From positions 62,001-126,000 of the forward strand of contig JAKABW010000001.1 of the NCBI GenBank assembly GCA_021796535.1: a stretch of 64,000 bases of DNA, in the 5' to 3' direction. Shown here in pieces: positions 6,169-29,006 of the stretch. Position 1 is the first letter of the stretch. Every line of letters begins with the position of its first letter. The DNA comes from Actinomycetes bacterium (GTDB lineage Bacteria > Actinomycetota > Acidimicrobiia > Acidimicrobiales > Bog-793). A program made the translations under genes and the position numbers. Under the pieces are notes generated by a model. The model did no database searches. It was not told the DNA's origin and saw nothing but the letters and a program-made list of their open reading frames with translations.

Positions 6169-8264
6169 CCGGTGACGGAGTCTTTCTCTGGGAGCCCCTT
6201 GCCTGTTGCGTCGGGACTGTTGTTCTGAGGGCGGTTATGACGACTGTTTGCCGTCGCTCCATCTGTCAGGGGAGGGGTGATATCTGCAGAGTCACACCAC
6301 CTACCCAATGCCGACACAGGGAAGATAAGTCTGTATAAGTGGTAATTGATATAAAAATCTCCCGGAAAACCGGTTCCCGTATAATACGGTTCGTCCCATG
6401 TGCCGTTTTCCAGTTGCGTGTCCTTAAGATACTGTATGCCGTGTTTTGCCGCTTCGCTGAAATGTTCTCCGGCGGCTATTAAAGCTATTAAAGCCCAGGC
6501 AGTTTGGGAGGGCGTGGAGTGGCCTCTGCCGGAAAAAGTCTTATCGGCGTAAGACCTGATGTCTTCACCCCAGCCGCCGTCGTCATTTTGGTGCTCTTTG
6601 AGATAGGCAACGGCTTTTTGTATGGGTTCTTCCTTCGGTGACATCCCCGATTCCACCAGAGCCAGAATCGCGGCGTTGACGCCGTAAATATAGTTGACCC
6701 CCCATCTGCCGTAGAAAGACCCGTCTGCTTCCTGGTTGGCGATAATCCAGTTGACGCCGCGCTGTATGGAGGTAATGTCGGCGGTTTTTTCGTTGGAAAG
6801 CATCTCCACCATATGTGCCGTCACATCGACGGACGGCGGATCGATGACGGCTCCGAAATCGCAAAAAGGCAGTTGATACAAAATATCCTTTTGATTGTCG
6901 GCATCAAAGGCTCCCCAAGCTCCGTCTTCCGAGCATAGGCCGTGTGACCAGGCAATGCCTCTCTTGACGGCGTTTTCCAAACGGGTCTGTTCTGTGGCCG
7001 TGGGCATCATGACTCTGCGCAAGGAAATTATAACCTCTGCCGTATCGTCAACATCAGGGTAGTTATCGTTTTCAAATTCGAATGCCCAGCCTCCGGGAGG
7101 GATATGCCCCCTTCTGACAGACCAGTCTCCTCTGGTCGTGACCTCGTGTTGCAAGAGCCAGGAAGCGGCTTTTTGAAGTTGCGGATGCTCTCCCGCCACC
7201 CCGGCATCGGTCAAAGCAATGATGCTGAGAGCCGTATCCCATATGGGAGACTGGCAGGCTTCCATACGTCGGAAATCGCCGTCGTGGATGGTAAATCCGT
7301 CCAAACCCGTAAAAGCCTTGGAAATAATCGGGTGATTCAGGGGATAGCCTCTGAGCTTTAGAGCCATCACGGAATAAACCCAAGGAGGCTGAATGCCTCC
7401 CCAGCCACCGTCGGCTTCCTGCCTCCGAATGATCCAGCGCTCGGCTTTTCTCAGAGCGAATTCCCTGACGGTTTTGCGCCATAAAGGTTTGCGCGTATGC
7501 TTTTCCAGACGCCTTAGCATCACATCCAACAGTGCAAAACGCTCCGTCCATGTTTTCAGTCCCGTTTTTGGGCCGGGCGGCATTATGTGCGTCCGTATTT
7601 CTTCTATGTCAATTCCTATGGGCTTTAGCGGGCGGTAGGCGCTTACTACCGATAAGGCCACTATTGTCTGTCTGGCCCAGCACCCGAAATCGTATATGCT
7701 GAGCGGCATAAAAGAAGGTATGAGCATGATTTCCACCGGCAAAGTGGGAAGGTCGTCCCAGCTCCATAAGCCAAACAAAGAGAGCCATATTTGTGTGAAG
7801 ACTCGGGCATTTTCCAACCCGCCTTGTTCGGTAATCCACTCGGCGGCTTTTTGCATGTGGGGTTCTTCTATGGTGTCGCCGGCGATCTTCAAAGCAACAT
7901 AGGCCTCTACCGTGGTGGAAAGATCACCGGGTCCACCGTAATAATTGGCCCAAGTGCCGTCTTCTCTTTGCATTTTCCGGATCCATAATGCCGTGGCGGC
8001 CAAGTCATCTCGGTTTATCATGTCGAGGTAGGTGCGCAGAAAAATATCTTCGGCCTCTATGGTGACGTTTGTTTCCAATTCTCCTTTCCAATATCCGGTG
8101 GGAGATTGCAAAGACATCAAGTGTTGCCGGGCTTTTATCAGAGTGTCTTGGATTTCCAGAAGTTCTTTTTGTGAAAACAGGGCGTCCACTTCCGAGCCTT
8201 TACCGACGGTGTCGTAAGACTCGAAATTGTCTATAACTTTTTTTTCAGTCATTGTGTTTCCCAT
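6165..8264 (-). CDS. shc: Squalene-hopene cyclase
   Basis: Class II terpene cyclase motif DVDDTA and multiple QW repeats (QEADGGWGGIQ, QNDDGGWGED, LENGTWDEPYYTGTGFPGDFYINYHLYR). Confidence 0.97.
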   Translation of the reverse strand: MGNTMTEKKVIDNFESYDTVGKGSEVDALFSQKELLEIQDTLIKARQHLMSLQSPTGYWKGELETNVTIEAEDIFLRTYLDMINRDDLAATALWIRKMQREDGTWANYYGGPGDLSTTVEAYVALKIAGDTIEEPHMQKAAEWITEQGGLENARVFTQIWLSLFGLWSWDDLPTLPVEIMLIPSFMPLSIYDFGCWARQTIVALSVVSAYRPLKPIGIDIEEIRTHIMPPGPKTGLKTWTERFALLDVMLRRLEKHTRKPLWRKTVREFALRKAERWIIRRQEADGGWGGIQPPWVYSVMALKLRGYPLNHPIISKAFTGLDGFTIHDGDFRRMEACQSPIWDTALSIIALTDAGVAGEHPQLQKAASWLLQHEVTTRGDWSVRRGHIPPGGWAFEFENDNYPDVDDTAEVIISLRRVMMPTATEQTRLENAVKRGIAWSHGLCSEDGAWGAFDADNQKDILYQLPFCDFGAVIDPPSVDVTAHMVEMLSNEKTADITSIQRGVNWIIANQEADGSFYGRWGVNYIYGVNAAILALVESGMSPKEEPIQKAVAYLKEHQNDDGGWGEDIRSYADKTFSGRGHSTPSQTAWALIALIAAGEHFSEAAKHGIQYLKDTQLENGTWDEPYYTGTGFPGDFYINYHLYRLIFPVSALGRWCDSADITPPLTDGATANSRHNRPQNNSPDATGKGLPEKDSVTG

Positions 8265-19820: not shown

Positions 19821-20588
19821 TTATTTACTGCCCTTTGGCAGTTCCAACTTATAACCGAGACCTCTGATCGTCGTTATGAAATGGGGATTGGAAGGGTCCT
19901 CTTCTATACGCGAGCGAAGCCGCTTGACATGTACGTCCAGTGTTTTTGTGTCACCTACGTAGTCGAATCCCCAAATCCGTTCTATCAGGACTTCTCTCAT
20001 GACAACCTTACCGGCATGTAGCATGAGTTGTTCCAAAAGTTCAAATTCTTTACGGGGCAGCATGACCTCTGATCCGCGGACTATACACTCGTGGCGATCG
20101 GGATCCAAAGTTATTTCGCCTATTTGAAGTATATTTTCATTTGTGGTTTTTATCTCATCCCCCGTGCTTTTGGGGGATTGCGCTCTTTCTGCGTCTTTTT
20201 GCTCCTGGGTGGAACGCCTTATTACAGCCCGCATCCGTGAGATCAGTTCATGTATCCTAAAGGGTTTTGTCACGTAATCGTCGGCACCGATTTCAAGTCC
20301 GACAACGGTATCGATTTCCGTCGACTTTGCGGTGAGCATGATGATAGGGACTCCGGAAAACATTCTGATCTGTCTGCAGACGTCCAGTCCGCTCATTTTG
20401 GGCAACATAATATCCAAAAGTACAATGTCGGCGGGCCTGCTTTTGAAGCTCTCCAATGCCTCCATACCGTCTCTGGCAATTCTTACCACAAAGCCTTCAC
20501 GGCTTAAATTAAGTTCCAGGGCTTCTATGAAGGATTCCTCGTCTTCTGCTATCAGTACTTCTGTTTGCTTTTCAGTTGATGTTGGCAA
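19821..20588 (-). CDS. OmpR-family response regulator (RegX3/PhoP-like)
   Basis: Receiver domain (VLIAEDEESF, VLLDIMLPKMSGLDV, LTAKS) plus winged-helix output domain (VGDTKTLDVHVKRLRSRIEEDPSNPHFITTIRGLGYKL). Confidence 0.95.
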   Translation of the reverse strand: MPTSTEKQTEVLIAEDEESFIEALELNLSREGFVVRIARDGMEALESFKSRPADIVLLDIMLPKMSGLDVCRQIRMFSGVPIIMLTAKSTEIDTVVGLEIGADDYVTKPFRIHELISRMRAVIRRSTQEQKDAERAQSPKSTGDEIKTTNENILQIGEITLDPDRHECIVRGSEVMLPRKEFELLEQLMLHAGKVVMREVLIERIWGFDYVGDTKTLDVHVKRLRSRIEEDPSNPHFITTIRGLGYKLELPKGSK

Positions 20589-20640: not shown

Positions 20641-21984
20641 CTAGTTGCTTCCGTTTTTAATAGTAGTGAATAAATTTTTATCTGCCACTCCGTGTAGCGG
20701 AATTCTGACGGTGAAAGTAGACCCCTCACCTTCTCTAGAATCCACTTCTATCATACCCCCGTGATTTTGCGTGACGTGCCTTACTATGGCAAGGCCGAGA
20801 CCCGTTCCGCCTGTCTGTCTGCTTCTTCCGTGGTCTACGCGATAAAATCTTTCGAAAATTCGCGTGAGGTCTCTGGCCGGAATGCCGATTCCGCTGTCTT
20901 GTACAGAAATGAATACCTCATCGTCGTCAACTTTACCTTGGCAAGTAACGGTTCCTCCTTCGTAGGAGAACTTAACGGCATTTTCCAAAAGGTTATAAAT
21001 GGCAGAGGTCAGTTGCCGTCTGTCGCCGAGCACGCTCACGGGAGGAGAGGGCTCGTTTAGCTGAATGCTGACTTTTCTTTGTTCGGCGGAAGACCATACG
21101 CGTTCCGCCGCTTCCGCCATGCATAGGTTGACCAGCACTGGTTCTCTGGGAGGCGATTCTTCGCTTTCGATTCTGGTGAGGTCGAGCAAATCGTCGATAA
21201 CTCTGCTGATGCGGAAAGCTTCCATATGGATTCTTTCTGCCAGACGCTTTTGAATATCGGGTTCGGTTTCCGTCAGCAAAGTTTCCGCCAGTAATCCCAA
21301 AGCTCCCATGGGGGTCTTTAATTCGTGACTGACGTTGGCAACAAAGTCCCTGCGTATTTCTTCCAAGCGTTTCTTTTCCGAAATATCTTCTATCACGGCC
21401 ATGACACCGAGAGCCCGTTGCCCGTTGTCCAGCGCTTTTGTTTTTACGCTCAATGTCCTTCTGGGAGGACCGTACAGTTCAAGAATCCGTTCCTCCTCAC
21501 CCCCGATGGCGGTTTCTTTGATCAAGTCGTCAACAGCCTGTGTCGTGATGGGGTCACCGGAAGAGTCTTTGACAATTTCGATGGCTCTTGTATTGTAAAA
21601 CACCGGTTCACCGTGTTCGTCGCATACGATAACGGCTTGGGGAAGAGAATCAAGGGATTTTCTGAGCCGTATGGCTTCCGAACTGGCTTCCGTGACGGCT
21701 TCGGTGGCAAGGTCAGTGGCTCTTTCCACGAGCGTGATCGAGTCATCCAGTGATTTTGGGTCTTGCTCAATATGGCCGATGCCGAGTCTGGTGGCCAGAG
21801 AGGTCAGTCTCAGGTTAAGGGAATTGCTCAGCTTTTTCTTGGTAATCAAAGAGGTCAGCAAAATTGCCACGATTATAACCAGTGCGTCAACGCCTGCGGC
21901 CGTGCCCAGCTTGGCAGGGTCTATATTTATATTTGCCAACATTAAGTAACTCCCTACCTCTAGGATTAAGGCAGCCAATACCAT
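20641..21984 (-). CDS. Sensor histidine kinase (SenX3-like)
   Basis: H-box FVANVSHELKTPMGAL, N-box YNLLENAVKFS, G-boxes DSGIGIP and GTGLGLAIV. Confidence 0.95.
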   Translation of the reverse strand: MVLAALILEVGSYLMLANINIDPAKLGTAAGVDALVIIVAILLTSLITKKKLSNSLNLRLTSLATRLGIGHIEQDPKSLDDSITLVERATDLATEAVTEASSEAIRLRKSLDSLPQAVIVCDEHGEPVFYNTRAIEIVKDSSGDPITTQAVDDLIKETAIGGEEERILELYGPPRRTLSVKTKALDNGQRALGVMAVIEDISEKKRLEEIRRDFVANVSHELKTPMGALGLLAETLLTETEPDIQKRLAERIHMEAFRISRVIDDLLDLTRIESEESPPREPVLVNLCMAEAAERVWSSAEQRKVSIQLNEPSPPVSVLGDRRQLTSAIYNLLENAVKFSYEGGTVTCQGKVDDDEVFISVQDSGIGIPARDLTRIFERFYRVDHGRSRQTGGTGLGLAIVRHVTQNHGGMIEVDSREGEGSTFTVRIPLHGVADKNLFTTIKNGSN

Positions 21985-22345
21985 TTCATATAGTTATGAT
22001 AGTTGATTTATCTGGTTGAACATAACTCCGACCGGATAATGTTATAAATTACCCAGTCCAACGGCAGCCATACCGCGGCATTCTAACTTTCGGATTATAA
22101 ATACACATAGAGTGAATATTTATGATCCGTTTTTTCCGGTCGGCAAATGGGATGCTTTGTCGGCTGAGCGGTTTTTGATTTCAGAATTTATTTTTAAAAA
22201 ACCGGCGGCTCTCATATCGGTAAGGATGTGGTATTCCCTGATGATAGACAGAGAACGGTACCAATTGTTTTTTGTGCACGGCATGAAATATGTTCATTTT
22301 GGTATCCCTAAAAATAAAACTTGAAGCATGTGAAAAGGAGTATAT

Positions 22346-22642
22346 ATGTTGTCTTTACGGATATTGCAAGGTGTTGTGAACTTAAATCCCACGCAATCAG
22401 GGTTGCCGGGGACCTCTCAATTGCAAAGCCTCATCAACGGAGTCGCATTTTGGGGACTTCTGGCTGCTTTGGCGGGGCTTATCATAGGAGCCGGCACCTG
22501 GGCACTGGGAGCACATTCAAATAATTACCAGCATTCCGCCACCGGGAGAAGAGCCGTTTTGGTTTCCATAGCGGCAGTTTTAATAATAGGTGCTGCTCCG
22601 GCCATATTGAATTTCTTTTTTAAAACCGGAGAAGGCTTTTAA
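22346..22642 (+). CDS. Small two-TM protein, VirB2/TrbC-like position in an actinobacterial transfer cluster
   Basis: RBS AAAGGAG before the ATG; two hydrophobic helices; directly upstream of a TrbL/VirB6-like gene. Confidence 0.65.
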   Translation: MLSLRILQGVVNLNPTQSGLPGTSQLQSLINGVAFWGLLAALAGLIIGAGTWALGAHSNNYQHSATGRRAVLVSIAAVLIIGAAPAILNFFFKTGEGF

Positions 22643-22645
22643 AAA

Positions 22646-23965
22646 ATGTCGCCCGGTCTGGGGATTATAGCCCACATTGTCAATTCCGTTTTTGGTCTGA
22701 TGGTCGGCTGGGTCGGACGCGGAGCGGCTGCTGTGGTCACGGAAGTGGGAAAAGCCATGTCGGCTACCACCAGCCCCGTTCTCAATGCCGGCTTTTTGAC
22801 GGAGTATAAGGCCATGGCTGCCATAGGGGCAGTTATGTGTTGTCCTATAGTAATTTTTGCGGTGATACAGGCGGTCGTCCATCAGGACTTGGGAAGTCTG
22901 GGGAGAATTGTTTTAATCCGCCTTCCCGCCTCAGTCCTTTTGACTGCGGCCGCAGTGAGCATTGTCCAACTCGCTCTGAGCTCGACTGACGGACTTTGCA
23001 ATTATATTTTGCAGGCGACACAAAACCAGAGCAATTCTGTTTTCGGTGTCGTGACCACACTGTTGTTGGGAATCAGCGGGGTCGGCAAACCGCTGCTGCC
23101 TTTTACGGGTTTTGCAGCGTTGATGCTTGCCATCCTTGCGGGAATTTTTGCCATCCTGCTATGGCTGGAATTGGCCCTAAGATCGGCTGCCGTGGCGATT
23201 ACTACACTTTTTTTGCCTCTGGCCCTTGCCGGCTATACGTGGAGCGTGACATCTCATTGGGCTAAGCGTCTTGGAGAAACAATATTTGCATTGATAATAT
23301 CAAAATTGGTCATTGTGGCGATTTTGGATTTAGCAGTCGTTACTTTGGCCAGCACCTCCGCGGACGGAGTTTCCGCGGGGGTAACGGGAATGGCGATTTT
23401 GTTTTTGGCTGCCTTAGCCCCTTATGTGGTTTTGAAACTTATCCCGATGTTTGAGCAAGGAGCGGTTTCCCATCTCGAAGGAGTCTCCAGACGTCCACTG
23501 CATCTGCTTGATACACAAAGCTTTACACGCAGGATGGCCGGGGAAGGGACAGATTTTTTCAACCGATGGGGAGGAGACGGCGACAATGACAATCCGGCAG
23601 ACTTCTTGGGCAACGTAGATCCAAGCGGCGGTTCAGGCGACGGAGGCGGACTGATGCCAATTTACATGGCGGCAAACGAAGAATCGGCAAATGATCTGGA
23701 AAAAGGAAAGGCACGCAATATGCAGCAATATGAAGTTGGCGAAAACAATATTTTCAACGGTCAAGAAATGACCCCGGAACAGCAAGTTCTATCAGAAAAA
23801 ATTTATAACGAATTGAACCGCTACGGGAATTTACATAACTTTGACATCGAAGCAGAAGCAGCTAAATTGCGAAACGGCAGCTCCGCTATGCCGACTGAAG
23901 AAGATTTGGGAAAAAGTAACGGCAAAACTTATTTTGCTGAAACAGATGATATTCAATCAGAATGA
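22646..23965 (+). CDS. TrbL/VirB6-like polytopic membrane protein
   Basis: Multiple TMs followed by a hydrophilic C-terminal tail; T4SS cluster context. Confidence 0.7.
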   Translation: MSPGLGIIAHIVNSVFGLMVGWVGRGAAAVVTEVGKAMSATTSPVLNAGFLTEYKAMAAIGAVMCCPIVIFAVIQAVVHQDLGSLGRIVLIRLPASVLLTAAAVSIVQLALSSTDGLCNYILQATQNQSNSVFGVVTTLLLGISGVGKPLLPFTGFAALMLAILAGIFAILLWLELALRSAAVAITTLFLPLALAGYTWSVTSHWAKRLGETIFALIISKLVIVAILDLAVVTLASTSADGVSAGVTGMAILFLAALAPYVVLKLIPMFEQGAVSHLEGVSRRPLHLLDTQSFTRRMAGEGTDFFNRWGGDGDNDNPADFLGNVDPSGGSGDGGGLMPIYMAANEESANDLEKGKARNMQQYEVGENNIFNGQEMTPEQQVLSEKIYNELNRYGNLHNFDIEAEAAKLRNGSSAMPTEEDLGKSNGKTYFAETDDIQSE

Positions 23966-24008
23966 AGTCTTATTAATTGCGAATTGTCAGACAAAGGGGT
24001 GTTGTTTT

Positions 24009-25415
24009 ATGACAGACCTACAGGGAACAGGAAATAAATATAAGTTTGGTCCAAGAGATAAAAGAGGACTGATTCTGGGCGTTTCTGTTTCGCAGGCAAT
24101 ACTGCTCTCCTTGTTTTTGTTGGGAGCCGTCCTCCTAATCAGGGCGAATGCCAGCTTGTATCAAGTGATCGCAGGTGCAGCGATGTTTTTGGCCGCCACC
24201 GCTGTCGTATTTATTGACGTAAAAGGAAAGCCGGTTCAATCTTGGATACCGGTAATGGCAGAGTCGCTAAAGCAAAAAGTCCTTTACGCCTTTTATCATA
24301 AAAACTTTAAATTAGTCGTTCGCGGCAATAAAACTTTACCGAAAGCGTTGGCAGGCCTAAAAGTTATCCCGGTCAATTCCGAAAAGCTTTCTTTCGGACT
24401 TATCAGAGACCGCAAGAGGTCAACCGTAAGCGTACTGATAGGGATGGGCTCTCTGCCCTTTGCGCTTCTCGGCGATAAAGAGCGTGACCGTCATATCAGG
24501 GCTTGGTCCCAGATACTGTCAGCTGTGGCATACGAAACTACCAGCATCAAAAGGATTCAATGGGTTGAAAGAACCCTCTCGGATCAGGGAGAATACCTGG
24601 CTGGCCATGACAGGCTGGCATCATTTGACGATCGCTCTCCGGAGCATGAGGATTACGGGGCGGACCTCTCTTACAGACGTTTGCTGGCGGAGCAGACAAA
24701 CGCCGTTTATAAACACGACGTCATTTTGTCTTGTACTTTTAATTCAAAAATTGAGCAAAGCGCCATAGAGACAGAAATTGCCAACCTGCTTTTGAGATGT
24801 AAAGAAATAGGTTTTGAAGGAGCCGCCGTTCTTTCTTTGGAGGATGTCAACAGCTACCTCAGGCAAGTATTTGATATCAGTTCGCGCTCACAAATCGTCG
24901 GCTGGCCTTGGCCCCAGAGCATAAAAGAGAATTGGTCTTATTTACAGACAGACGGACTGTACGTGGCCGGCTACAGCATTATCGAATGGCCGAGAATGGA
25001 AGTGAAAGCCGGGTTTTTTCTTCCCTTGCTGATCGGATCCAATGTCAGAAGAACTATTTCGTTGGTGATGCGGCCCGTTACTACGGGACGGGCCGTAAAA
25101 CAAGTAGAACAAGCCAGAACTGAGCATGCCGCGGATACCGCCATTAAAAACCGTTATGGGTTTTCACTGACGGCTCGGGCCAAAAAAGAAGCGGAAGCCA
25201 TAGAGCGCCGGGAACAGGAATTGGCGGCCGGCTTTGCCGACTACAGATTTGCCGGCTATATCACGGTGTTTGCCCAGAGTCAATCAGCTTTGACCAGTGC
25301 ATGCAAACAAATAGAGCAGCTGGCTTCTCTTTCGCTGCTGGATATCAGGAGGGTATATGGGGAACAAAAAGAAGCTTTTCTGTGTACATTGCCCATCGGG
25401 AGGGGATGTGACTGA
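24009..25415 (+). CDS. SCO6880-family (PrgI-like plus VirB4 N-terminal-like) transfer protein
   Basis: Two N-terminal TMs then a long soluble domain resembling Streptomyces SCO6880 proteins; ATG 24009 after AAAGGGG. The track start at 23841 overlaps the preceding gene. Confidence 0.75.
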   Translation: MTDLQGTGNKYKFGPRDKRGLILGVSVSQAILLSLFLLGAVLLIRANASLYQVIAGAAMFLAATAVVFIDVKGKPVQSWIPVMAESLKQKVLYAFYHKNFKLVVRGNKTLPKALAGLKVIPVNSEKLSFGLIRDRKRSTVSVLIGMGSLPFALLGDKERDRHIRAWSQILSAVAYETTSIKRIQWVERTLSDQGEYLAGHDRLASFDDRSPEHEDYGADLSYRRLLAEQTNAVYKHDVILSCTFNSKIEQSAIETEIANLLLRCKEIGFEGAAVLSLEDVNSYLRQVFDISSRSQIVGWPWPQSIKENWSYLQTDGLYVAGYSIIEWPRMEVKAGFFLPLLIGSNVRRTISLVMRPVTTGRAVKQVEQARTEHAADTAIKNRYGFSLTARAKKEAEAIERREQELAAGFADYRFAGYITVFAQSQSALTSACKQIEQLASLSLLDIRRVYGEQKEAFLCTLPIGRGCD

Positions 25416-25453
25416 ATCATCTTTTGTAGATCGCCGCAAGCTTGGGAGATGTC

Positions 25454-26722
25454 GTGAATCAATACATACATGAAGCAACCACTATTCAGATAGGATCGGT
25501 ATTTCCTTTTGTGGCCAGCAAACCGCTGGGGATAGATAAAATTTTAATAGGAAGAGATTTATTGGGCGGCCTCTTTTTGCACGATCCCTTTGAACTCTAT
25601 AAGGCGGGCATCATAACAAGTCCCAATATGGTATTGATCGGACAAATTGGGAGAGGCAAAAGCTCTCTTGTGAAGACCTACCTTTACAGAGAGGCGGCTT
25701 TCGGGAGGCAGATAGTTGTTTTGGACCCAAAAGGGGAATACGGTGCTTTGGCAAATGCACTTGGTGCAGAACCGATTTATTTATATCCGGGCGGTCCGTA
25801 CAGATTGAACCCATTGGACATGACATCCGTCGGGAGCGCCGATGGGCAGGATCCGGATCGCCATAACCCGAACAAAGAAGCCCACTTATTTAAAAAGAGA
25901 TTAGAATTGATGATAGCCATCTGCTCGGCCTGCGTTCAGAGGACTCTTAAGCCCATTGAATATACGGCATTGGAGTATGCTCTGGCGTCGTCTTCCGGCA
26001 GACATACAACCGTATTGCTCCCGCACATTATCGACGAGCTTTTATATCCTTTGTCCGACGCTTATACCCAAATTGGGATAAAACAAGAAGAATTGGTTAT
26101 CGGAGCGCGGGACATAGCCCTGGAGTTACGGCGCCTTGTCTACGGGGAGCTCGCCGGTATGTTTGACGGTATCACAAGTCCAGCCTTAAAACTTAACAGA
26201 AATATTTTTGTTTTGGATCTTTCCGCTCTTTATGCCTCGCCGGCTTTGGGAATTATGATGGCATGTGCCGCTGCATTTATACAGTCAATTTATGCGGATT
26301 CTACAAAAAAGAAAACTCTTTTGGTGGTGGATGAAGCTTGGGCGGTACTTCAAAATGTGGGAGTGGCCAGATTTTTGCAAGCATCATGGAAACTGGCACG
26401 CAGCAGGGGGATAGCCAATATTGCGGTACTCCACAGGATAAGCGATCTTGAAACTTCCGGAGAAAACCAAAGTGTGCAAAGTAAGATCAGTACCGGACTT
26501 TTAAGTGATTCCGAAACCGTAATTTGCTACGCACAACCTCATCAGGAAGTAAGTCTGGCGGCAAAAAGTTTGGGAATTACAAGCGAAGAAGCGGCGCTGT
26601 TACCCAATTTGCGGAAAGGCGTAGGGCTATGGAAGGTGGGTTCAAGGACATACCTTGTCGAGCACAAACTTACCTTTAGAGAAAAAGAAATTATCAATAC
26701 GGATCAGTCACTCACAAACTAA
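25454..26722 (+). CDS. VirB4/TraC-like ATPase
   Basis: Walker A IGQIGRGKSSLVKT, VLDPKGEYGAL, Walker B TLLVVDEAWAVL; GTG start at 25454 after GGGAG. Confidence 0.88.
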   Translation: MNQYIHEATTIQIGSVFPFVASKPLGIDKILIGRDLLGGLFLHDPFELYKAGIITSPNMVLIGQIGRGKSSLVKTYLYREAAFGRQIVVLDPKGEYGALANALGAEPIYLYPGGPYRLNPLDMTSVGSADGQDPDRHNPNKEAHLFKKRLELMIAICSACVQRTLKPIEYTALEYALASSSGRHTTVLLPHIIDELLYPLSDAYTQIGIKQEELVIGARDIALELRRLVYGELAGMFDGITSPALKLNRNIFVLDLSALYASPALGIMMACAAAFIQSIYADSTKKKTLLVVDEAWAVLQNVGVARFLQASWKLARSRGIANIAVLHRISDLETSGENQSVQSKISTGLLSDSETVICYAQPHQEVSLAAKSLGITSEEAALLPNLRKGVGLWKVGSRTYLVEHKLTFREKEIINTDQSLTN

Positions 26723-26758
26723 AAATTACATTTTCAATGTAAAAGATTACGGGTAAAT

Positions 26759-28465
26759 GTGAATCCTCAATTACAAAGCAAAAATGACTCTTTATTACTA
26801 ATAATTATCTCGGTATTTGCGCTTATTGCGCTGTCGGTTTGGCTTGCCGGTGGTCTGGCCATGGTTGTCGCTGGGCACGGCTGGCATGAGGTCGGCATAG
26901 ATGAGACGTTGTGGCTTGTGATTGGGATGGCAAAGCATCCCAAAAATATCATTCTTGCATGGCCAAAAGATAAGCGCGCTTTGCTGGGGCCGAAACCCAT
27001 AATCTATTTTGCGATCTTTTTTGTTTTTTTATTAATGTTGGCAGTATTCGTATTGTTGAGGTCAGTGCACACCAAAAAAAGATCCAAGGCAACCGGAGGC
27101 GGCAGGATAAAAAGCGTTTCATATCGCGCTCAACCGGTGCTCAATTCCGGAGCCAGCTGGGCATCAAAACAGGATATGAAAATTCTTCTTGCAAAAAAAG
27201 ATACTTCTCAGAGACTTGTTGTGGGCAGATTTCATTCGAGACTGTTATCCGTGGAGGCCAACCACTCCGTCTTGCTGGTCGGCCCTTCGCAATCCGGCAA
27301 AACAAGCGGCTTGGCTATTCCTGCTATTTTGGAGTGGGAGGGTCCGATAATAGCCACCAGCGTGAAGACTGATTTGATCAGGGATACCCATGCCCTACGG
27401 GCCAAAAAGGGCAAAACATTTGTGTATGACCCCACGGGGATCAGCGGCTTAAAACGTTCGTCCTGGTCTCCTCTGCTTTTTTCCCGCACTTGGGAAGGAG
27501 CCCTTTCTACGGCAGCAAGTTTTTGCCAACAGGCAAAAACCGGCGGCGGGGGCATGGAAGACGCCGGTTTTTGGTACGCCACGGCTGAAAAGCTGATCGC
27601 CCCCTTGCTTTATGCGGCAGCCAACGGAGGATGTTCCATGGACGACGTAATTACCTGGATTGATACAGCGGAAGCGGAAGAGCCTTTCAAAATTTTGGAG
27701 TCTTTGGGGAACAACGCGGCCCTCCGTGCTGCCGCGGCGAGTTTTTCCCGCGAAGACAAACAGAAAAGCTCCGTCTATACGACAGCCGAAACAGTTTTGG
27801 CGGCTTTTGCCGATCCTATCGTGGCAAGTGTTTCCGGATCCAACGACTTCACGCCCGCCGATTTTACTTCCGGTCGGTCCAATACTTTATATTTGGTGTC
27901 GCCGGGACATTTTCAGCAACGCTTGCAGTCCGTTTTTACGGCGATAATCAAAACCATCCTCAATCACGCTTTGGAAGAGTCTTGCGCCAGAGGCAAAGTT
28001 TTGGATCCCGCTTTGTTGGTTGTACTGGATGAAGCCGCCAATATAGCTCCTCTGGACAATCTGGATACCCTGGCTTCAATTGCGGCGGGGCACGGTGTCC
28101 AGCTGCTGACTGTTTTTCAGGATGTCTCACAAATCGAAGCGCGTTACGGAACCCGTTGGGCGACGGTAGTGAATAACCACCGCGCCAAAGTATTGTGCTC
28201 TTCAATAGCGGACCCAAAGACACTGGAACATTTTTCGAGCGTCATGGGAGATGAGGACAAGGACGTATCGTCTCACTCTTATGACAAGGCGGGGAATTGG
28301 ACACAAAGTATTTCTTCCCAACCGAAGCGGCTTGCACCGGTGGATTATCTCAGAAGAATTCGGCCGGAGCATGCCGTTTTGCTTTACGGGCATCTGCCGC
28401 CGGTGCTTATGGAGCTGAGACCTTTTTACAAAGACAAGCAGTTGCGGGCTTTACTGCAACAGTAA
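26759..28465 (+). CDS. VirD4/TraG-type coupling protein ATPase
   Basis: N-terminal TMs; Walker A VGPSQSGKTSGLAIPA; Walker B LLVVLDEAANIAPLDNL. Confidence 0.9.
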   Translation: MNPQLQSKNDSLLLIIISVFALIALSVWLAGGLAMVVAGHGWHEVGIDETLWLVIGMAKHPKNIILAWPKDKRALLGPKPIIYFAIFFVFLLMLAVFVLLRSVHTKKRSKATGGGRIKSVSYRAQPVLNSGASWASKQDMKILLAKKDTSQRLVVGRFHSRLLSVEANHSVLLVGPSQSGKTSGLAIPAILEWEGPIIATSVKTDLIRDTHALRAKKGKTFVYDPTGISGLKRSSWSPLLFSRTWEGALSTAASFCQQAKTGGGGMEDAGFWYATAEKLIAPLLYAAANGGCSMDDVITWIDTAEAEEPFKILESLGNNAALRAAAASFSREDKQKSSVYTTAETVLAAFADPIVASVSGSNDFTPADFTSGRSNTLYLVSPGHFQQRLQSVFTAIIKTILNHALEESCARGKVLDPALLVVLDEAANIAPLDNLDTLASIAAGHGVQLLTVFQDVSQIEARYGTRWATVVNNHRAKVLCSSIADPKTLEHFSSVMGDEDKDVSSHSYDKAGNWTQSISSQPKRLAPVDYLRRIRPEHAVLLYGHLPPVLMELRPFYKDKQLRALLQQ

Positions 28466-28502: not shown

Positions 28503-29006
28503 TCAGTCGGCCACGGCAAGATAGATGCCCAAAGCGCAGGCCGATACGGTCGATGCCAAAACTCCGTAAGCGTATGGCTTGGGAAGTTTTTTGAAGTCAA
28601 TTATGGTGGCCACGGTATCGCCCAAATCGGCCACGGCTCCGGCCAACAACCACCTCTGAGAGTCCTTGTCTTGCGTGAGGGAGTAGAGGTGCCCCAATCC
28701 CAGTGCCAAATCTCTTGCCCCGAGAGTTCTGGCGAACAGACGGACAGAGTGTCTGGAGCTTTCCTCTTTGCCGACCCAAGGGATGCTCGGCACGGTGGGT
28801 GCCAGATAGGCAACGGCACCCAACGATGCCCTGGCAACCGCAAGGCCGTAGGAAAGGTATGAATTCCACGGGAAAGGTGGTTTTTTGGCATCGGAATCTT
28901 GCAGGAGGGGTCGTGTCGGGATGAGAGCAAAAAGAATCCCCCGTCCGCCCAAAGATCGCAAACGGTCTTTTTTTATTTTGCCAAACAGAGCTTTTTGTCC
29001 AGACAT
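28503..29006 (-). CDS. Putative membrane protein (DUF4267-like)
   Basis: Hydrophobic segments and the pattern RLFARTLGARDLALGLGHLY...AGAVADLGDTVATI. Confidence 0.55.
   Translation of the reverse strand: MSGQKALFGKIKKDRLRSLGGRGILFALIPTRPLLQDSDAKKPPFPWNSYLSYGLAVARASLGAVAYLAPTVPSIPWVGKEESSRHSVRLFARTLGARDLALGLGHLYSLTQDKDSQRWLLAGAVADLGDTVATIIDFKKLPKPYAYGVLASTVSACALGIYLAVAD

Follow-up and report, generated by a model that had tools for sequence, protein, structure and literature searches.

A five-gene type IV secretion cluster in an Acidimicrobiales genome, probably the membrane half of a domesticated two-locus conjugation system

Conjugation in bacteria is, as a rule, a trait of mobile elements. 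In the present study, we analysed a cluster of five genes encoding a type IV secretion system (T4SS), referred to as locus A, in a stretch of 64,000 nucleotides (the window) from a genome of the Acidimicrobiales, an order of actinobacteria of acid soils and mine waters. We propose that this cluster is probably the membrane half of a domesticated chromosomal conjugation system, the second half of which, including the relaxase, is encoded at a distant locus (locus B), and that this two-locus system is core in the order.

Several described systems resemble this one in part. First, the archaeal Ced system is domesticated conjugation machinery, and Ced/Ted is likewise chromosomal, with reported movement of cellular DNA; Ced works by import, and in the portion of the account drawn on here its named components, CedA, CedA1, CedA2 and CedB, include no relaxase (PMC9905601), whereas the present system combines a bacterial T4SS with pilin, VirB6, VirB4 and VirD4 components and a relaxase of the three-histidine (HUH) type over two loci. 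Second, in the gonococcal genetic island (GGI), a relaxase and a T4SS, both chromosomal, export chromosomal single-stranded DNA (ssDNA), but that island is F-like, occurs in a subset of strains and has a linked origin of transfer (oriT) (PMC12857230); here, the T4SS is of the SCO6880 type, core across the order, and stands apart from its relaxase. Third, the Streptomyces Cmd operon SCO4126-4131 (and SCO6871-6884), the null phenotype of which is developmental (PMC2782261), is chromosomal and has the same kinds of genes in the same order (SCO6881-, SCO6880- and VirB4-like), but it is very divergent in the VirB4 tree, is accompanied by no core TrwC and shows no adjacency to SenX3/RegX3 in the stretches read. 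Fourth, chromosomal T4SSs of the monoderm (MPF_FATA) type are widespread in Patescibacteria and are inferred to be co-opted, mostly without a relaxase (PMC12102498); co-option of a chromosomal T4SS is the likeness, and the difference is that a relaxase is kept here in trans. Finally, the relaxase N-domain is homologous to TrwC of plasmid R388 and the SCO6880 protein matches the TrwK/VirB4 fold, but here the helicase Walker A is absent, the second tyrosine pair is gone in most genera, and VirB4 is present as two polypeptides.

Gene content and fixed position of the secretion locus

An earlier note on this DNA, made from the sequence alone, had listed a two-transmembrane protein, a VirB6-like protein, an SCO6880 protein, a VirB4 and a VirD4, and the open reading frames and domain matches agree with that list (Table 1). 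Homologues of SCO6880, SCO6881, VirB4 and VirD4 thus lie in one operon, as in SCO6880-type actinobacterial T4SSs. The first protein matched DUF6112 (E 4e-10) and, more weakly, the T4SS_pilin profile (5e-4), and it shares 50-95% identity with counterparts at the same position in relatives. The second matched the SCO6881 family (E 4e-13) with about seven hydrophobic segments, although at a score below the curated NCBIfam cut-off (49 vs 325), and the third matched the SCO6880 family above the cut-off (E 6e-60; 203 vs 60 bits). The AlphaFold model of the SCO6880 protein (mean predicted local distance difference test score, 86) had R388 TrwK/VirB4 T4SS entries as all of its 14 best matches in the PDB fold search (E 1e-9 to 3e-8). 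Because the fold of this protein, which has two N-terminal transmembrane helices, is that of an N-terminal VirB4 half, VirB4 appears to be split over two genes, and the SCO6880 protein is best read from the model as a VirB3-like part joined to that half, with the ATPase half coming from the next gene. The latter matched VirB4-type profiles (E 1e-21 to 1e-9) and the VirB4 structure 4ag5 (E 6e-28); its Walker A, GQIGRGKS, is invariant, and this and the Walker B region, VVDEAW, are conserved across 20 relatives. The coupling protein (T4CP) encoded by the fifth gene matched T4SS-DNA_transf (E 1e-40) and TraG-D_C and has two N-terminal transmembrane segments. Compared with a congener, the ratio of nonsynonymous to synonymous substitution rates (dN/dS) of the locus A genes is 0.02-0.11, with dS near saturation and no stops, and the pilin gene is the most strongly constrained of the set (0.018).

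The position of the cluster is also conserved. The congener (G001) is collinear with the window across the cluster and on either side of it, and in 18 of 18 fetched family loci, some of which end before VirD4, as well as in the window, the genes are divergent from the same SenX3/RegX3-like kinase. When public genomes were scanned with the VirB4 alignment, 80 loci were obtained, nearly all from Acidimicrobiaceae/Acidimicrobiales or unclassified actinobacterial metagenome-assembled genomes (MAGs), and the kinase is divergent from the pilin gene in 42 of the 50 having at least 6.5 kb of upstream DNA. The same arrangement was observed in families f23, f27 and f29 of the order, including genomes of 1.7-2.2 Mb. 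The cluster varies in presence no more than incomplete MAGs can explain, no tRNA gene lies within about 18 kb of it, and SCO6880, VirB4 and TrwC are each single-copy in its own genome.

These results bear on whether the cluster is an integrated conjugative element (ICE) or the decaying remnant of one. In other parts of the phylum, elements do carry SCO6880-type T4SSs and TrwC jointly, for example in G060, where a few kb separate the two. Against this, the cluster sits at one and the same position in every family locus examined and also in other families, its flanks are syntenic on both sides, its relaxase gene lies on a different contig, within a conserved housekeeping locus (see below), and low dN/dS, intact reading frames, single copies and retention in small genomes speak against decay as well as mobility. 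Judged from position, flanks, nearby tRNA genes and the place of the relaxase gene, with no search aimed at att repeats or an integrase, the ICE reading is largely refuted, and we give almost no weight to an element or remnant. The earlier note had raised both a domesticated, non-ICE T4SS and a remnant: the former accords with the presence of the same locus across this and other families, and the latter is disfavoured by purifying selection and by the small genomes. The synteny comparison that it had called for places both loci at fixed sites across relatives, without the variable presence that would mark an ICE. Thus, chromosomal and vertically inherited conjugation genes are kept under selection, a situation like that of Ced in kind.

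A relaxase at a second conserved locus

The absence of a relaxase, also claimed in the earlier note, holds for the window but not for the genome, which encodes a TrwC protein with intact catalytic motifs on a separate contig (G000:C2:2258-5302, minus strand; Pfam-confirmed). Calls of a T4SS without a relaxase made from a single locus can thus mislead when the relaxase is encoded elsewhere. The relaxase profile PF03432 had no match in this genome or in the 35 family genomes, and TrwC (PF08751) was found in 34 of the 35, the sole miss being a 68%-complete MAG; the informative relaxase family is therefore MOBF. Locus B has a conserved order, with typA followed by one or two genes of the PafC/WYL type (pafBC), trwC, a second VirD4-type ATPase gene in convergent orientation, and hup. 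This second coupling protein (T4CP2) has no transmembrane segments. The relaxase-T4CP2 pair is common to families f1 and f23, and f23 genomes keep both the kinase-linked locus A and locus B with T4CP2. As in locus A, no stops and low dN/dS were observed, with dS near saturation.

The residues of the relaxase were partly retained and partly lost. The protein has a TrwC domain with the motif I tyrosine and the three-histidine motif, its N-domain aligns with R388 TrwC structures (E 4e-22), and the first tyrosine pair and the three histidines are kept in 18 of 18 core relaxases examined. The Walker A is missing from all 18, several of which are cut at contig ends, whereas the mobile-type TrwC proteins L173, L203, L153 and L201 have it and the last three carry full helicases. 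In the TrwC of the window's own genome, no match to the C-terminal superfamily 1 helicase of MOBF relaxases was found with Pfam; L172 retains a vestige. The second tyrosine pair is present in the window's genus (L169-L171) and gone from all other core copies examined. The loss of helicase and second tyrosine with the nicking residues kept suggests a relaxase that may still cut DNA but need not unwind or re-circularise a plasmid.

Several results indicate that the T4SS and trwC are halves of one system. First, in seven of eight kinase-less public loci, which form a sister clade, trwC (minus strand) lies directly upstream of the pilin gene and divergent from it, an arrangement that brings the two halves together in one locus. 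In the isolate Acidiferrimicrobium (sp. IK), this one-locus form adjoins murT/gatD and nicotinate phosphoribosyltransferase genes and is therefore chromosomal; the cultured Aciditerrimonas ferrireducens has the form linked to the kinase. Second, pairwise protein distances in genera other than that of the window correlate strongly between SCO6880 and TrwC (r=0.95) and between VirB4 and TrwC (r=0.92), compared with 0.85 for SCO6880 and the kinase and 0.79 for SCO6880 and TypA; the distances of both loci follow those of TypA and the kinase, the pattern of vertical descent. Third, in a sample of 297 genomes of the phylum, SCO6880 and TrwC occur together in 27 and singly in 42 and 39, respectively (odds ratio 36, Fisher p 1e-18, uncorrected for plasmids and for relatedness, which makes related genomes non-independent observations). 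From these results, we infer that both loci work together in the window's family.

A further link might lie in the promoters. In relatives (L063, L083, L072, L034 and others), three to four tandem TTTCAWGNNN repeats stand on the minus strand upstream of the pilin gene, with a period of exactly 10 bp, or one helical turn (37 pairs at spacing 10 vs 0.2 in shuffles), and the opposite strand has no such pairs. The window's genus retains at most one unit. The element is also found in the kinase-less loci L098, L106 and L085, and it recurs just upstream of trwC, in the same orientation, in L184 and L189 (z about 7), with a weak occurrence in L174. As a sign of one system, a repeat common to the pilin and trwC promoters is suggestive only.

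The additional TrwC copies of several family genomes, some of which look mobile, could be taken to mean that the cluster is a helper apparatus mobilising resident plasmids or other elements in trans. Among the family copies fetched, the L173 trwC mentioned above lies outside the typA-hup site and looks mobile. It is, in contrast, the core TrwC with which the core T4SS evolves in step, and service to plasmids hardly explains vertical retention in small genomes; we consider the helper reading very unlikely.

Proposed mechanism and competing readings

Herein, we propose a two-locus mechanism. Locus A would supply the pilin, the VirB6-like channel protein, the VirB3-VirB4N fusion (SCO6880), VirB4C and VirD4, and locus B (G000:C2, between pafBC/typA and hup) the MOBF/TrwC relaxase and the second, soluble VirD4-type ATPase. 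TrwC would nick chromosomal DNA at a putative site, with the first tyrosine holding the 5' end; the coupling ATPases would then pass the relaxase and the single strand to the VirB4/VirB6/pilin channel, through which the strand would leave the cell for a neighbour or the medium. Since no plasmid has to be re-circularised, the relaxase could have shed its helicase ATPase and, outside the window's genus, its second tyrosine pair. The proposal builds on computed results: gene content, the split VirB4 fold, the synteny and co-inheritance of both loci, the retention and loss of residues, and the trwC-T4SS linkage in the sister clade. As regards the transfer itself, we infer its substrate, direction and recipient.

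Several observations weigh against this mechanism. According to a review, efficient plasmid transfer by MOBF relaxases requires both the helicase and a pair of tyrosines (PMC12857230), and the losses described above would equally fit a relaxase drifting to another DNA task, which is the main alternative. In f23, the relaxase is shorter (335-403 aa) and motif I is altered, so that it may differ as an enzyme. No conserved oriT candidate was found, and none in the window; the TTTCAWGNNN element is absent from the other 22 trwC upstream regions and precedes trwC in only two or three genomes. Correlated distances reflect shared descent and are no proof of physical partnership. VirB4 had no match in four genomes with TrwC (G002, G014, G024 and G029), although G014 has a partial SCO6880 match; the incompleteness of these MAGs explains most of these cases, perhaps not all. 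Finally, of the profile searches proposed in the earlier note, that for a relaxase succeeded and that for VirB8 did not: VirB8/TcpC, expected of an MPF_FATA system, was found by Pfam in 0 of 35 family genomes with a single model, the TcpC model PF12642, and no VirB1-like hydrolase was found in locus A, to which that search was confined.

The direction of transfer can be considered in light of the known uptake genes. ComEC, which forms the channel through the inner membrane in known transformation systems, was absent (PF03772) from all 35 family genomes but present in 10 of 14 control genomes, and ComEC-based transformation is therefore unavailable to the family; the distribution of DprA (20 of 35) is uninformative. 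A DNA uptake apparatus of the ComB type, a possibility raised in the earlier note, would fit a chromosomal T4SS bearing a pilin. Without ComEC, and given that VirD4, T4CP2 and the nicking relaxase all point to export, ComB-like uptake through this T4SS appears unlikely, to the extent that we set the reading close to zero.

The lack of ComEC also touches another reading, in which chromosomal ssDNA would be secreted to the medium independently of contact, as by the gonococcal island, for biofilm or nutrients and not for mating. The relaxase, T4CP and T4SS are all chromosomal, the GGI provides the precedent (PMC12857230), and released DNA could not be imported by the ComEC route. Nevertheless, the strong constraint on the pilin argues for a surface appendage, of which GGI secretion needs none, and we regard secretion of this kind as unlikely, if still deserving of consideration.

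About as unlikely is a machine for protein export or cell biology like Cmd, with envelope, segregation or effector roles, in which case TrwC would act on unrelated DNA. Cmd has VirB4-, SCO6880- and SCO6881-like genes, and its effects are on sporulation and segregation, with none on plasmid transfer (PMC2782261); a relaxase without helicase and second tyrosine would also suit this reading. However, Cmd lies far off in the VirB4 tree, and TrwC was found in only three of eight sampled large genomes with a cmd-like operon and SCO6880 matches, on other contigs, whereas here TrwC and the T4CP are near-universal and TrwC of the sister clade adjoins the T4SS. Orthology with Streptomyces cmdA-F was considered but finds no support, the presumed cmd clusters being placed on a long branch well apart from the present clade in a tree that was quickly made and has long branches. 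Protein export, which the earlier note had also proposed, thus keeps a place among the explanations but is no longer the simplest.

If the two-locus system operates as proposed, an order-wide, core, relaxase-bearing conjugation system would be the bacterial equivalent of Ced in archaea. No description of such a system in Acidimicrobiales was found in the open-licence papers searched. More tentatively, and with less confidence than in the two-locus system itself, we hypothesize that the Acidimicrobiales might possess a vertically inherited sexual apparatus, namely a core, non-mobile machine with a relaxase that starts transfer of the cell's own chromosome and from which parts needed only by plasmids have been shed. 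As the lineage lacks ComEC, such an apparatus would provide it with a main route for exchanging chromosomal DNA. A core system of this kind would also make it testable, in cultured relatives, whether some bacteria maintain mating machinery to their own advantage.

Neighbouring genes, intergenic sequences and accessory genes

The flanks are as the earlier note described them, namely a two-component system on one side and, on the other, the DUF4267-like gene followed by tatA-like and then coxBA genes. The SenX3/RegX3-like pair is a possible regulator of the T4SS, as judged from its conserved position. The DUF4267-like gene adjoins VirD4 in a few genera and is not evidently part of the machine.

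Table 1. Positions of the T4SS genes and neighbouring features in the window
Feature	Coordinates	Strand	Evidence
RegX3/PhoB-like response regulator; conserved neighbour, possible regulator	19821..20588	-	domain profiles, synteny
SenX3/PhoR-like histidine kinase; conserved neighbour, possible regulator	20641..21984	-	domain profiles, synteny
Divergent intergenic region; one recognisable repeat unit (22282-22288)	21985..22345		repeat scan
DUF6112/T4SS pilin-like protein, 98 aa, two transmembrane helices	22346..22642	+	domain profiles, transmembrane prediction, relatives in synteny
SCO6881/VirB6-like polytopic membrane protein, 439 aa	22646..23965	+	NCBIfam profile, hydrophobic segments, conserved synteny
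SCO6880 protein, two transmembrane helices (VirB3-like) and N-terminal VirB4 half	24006..25415	+	NCBIfam, AlphaFold, PDB fold search
VirB4 C-terminal ATPase half with conserved Walker motifs A and B	25442..26722	+	domain profiles, alignment, PDB relative
VirD4-type coupling ATPase (T4CP), membrane-anchored	26759..28465	+	domain profiles, transmembrane prediction
DUF4267-like gene, weak match (E 0.0099, below cut-off)	28503..29006	-	profile search, synteny

Genes of the pst/phoU group lie downstream of the T4SS in 14 of 48 public loci. A Pho box, and with it a link to phosphate starvation, was considered for the TTTCAWGNNN repeats and dropped because no match was obtained at the promoters of pst or phoU and because kinase-less loci have the repeats too. 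In four large, presumed Streptomyces genomes (L163/L143, L164/L144, L165/L146 and L166/L147), a cmd-like cluster and pstSCAB are about 14 kb apart; that Acidimicrobiales T4SS clusters are also often beside phoU/pst genes may be a coincidence or an old linkage.

Two further intergenic signals were set aside: the over-represented word CCAGCATG was taken as the start-codon region of the kinase, and a conserved block preceding T4CP2 appears to be the hup promoter. In L013 (about 7590-7630), an imperfect 12-bp inverted repeat, TACCAAATGCAA/TTGCAATTGGTA, stands upstream of the pilin gene and is followed by a CTGTCTA string; it is barely above shuffles, and an oriT-like reading is possible but unsupported.

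An HU-type gene stands beside the relaxase/T4CP pair in a position conserved across genera, and in L169 (3-515) the pair adjoins the genome's own HU-type protein, cut by the contig end, with an Ala/Lys-rich C-terminal tail. In locus A, L024 (11984-13426; genome G031) has an open reading frame of 480 aa between virB4 and virD4, which might encode an accessory component or a substrate, and the one-locus systems L096 and L106 carry about 4.5 kb of extra genes at the same place.

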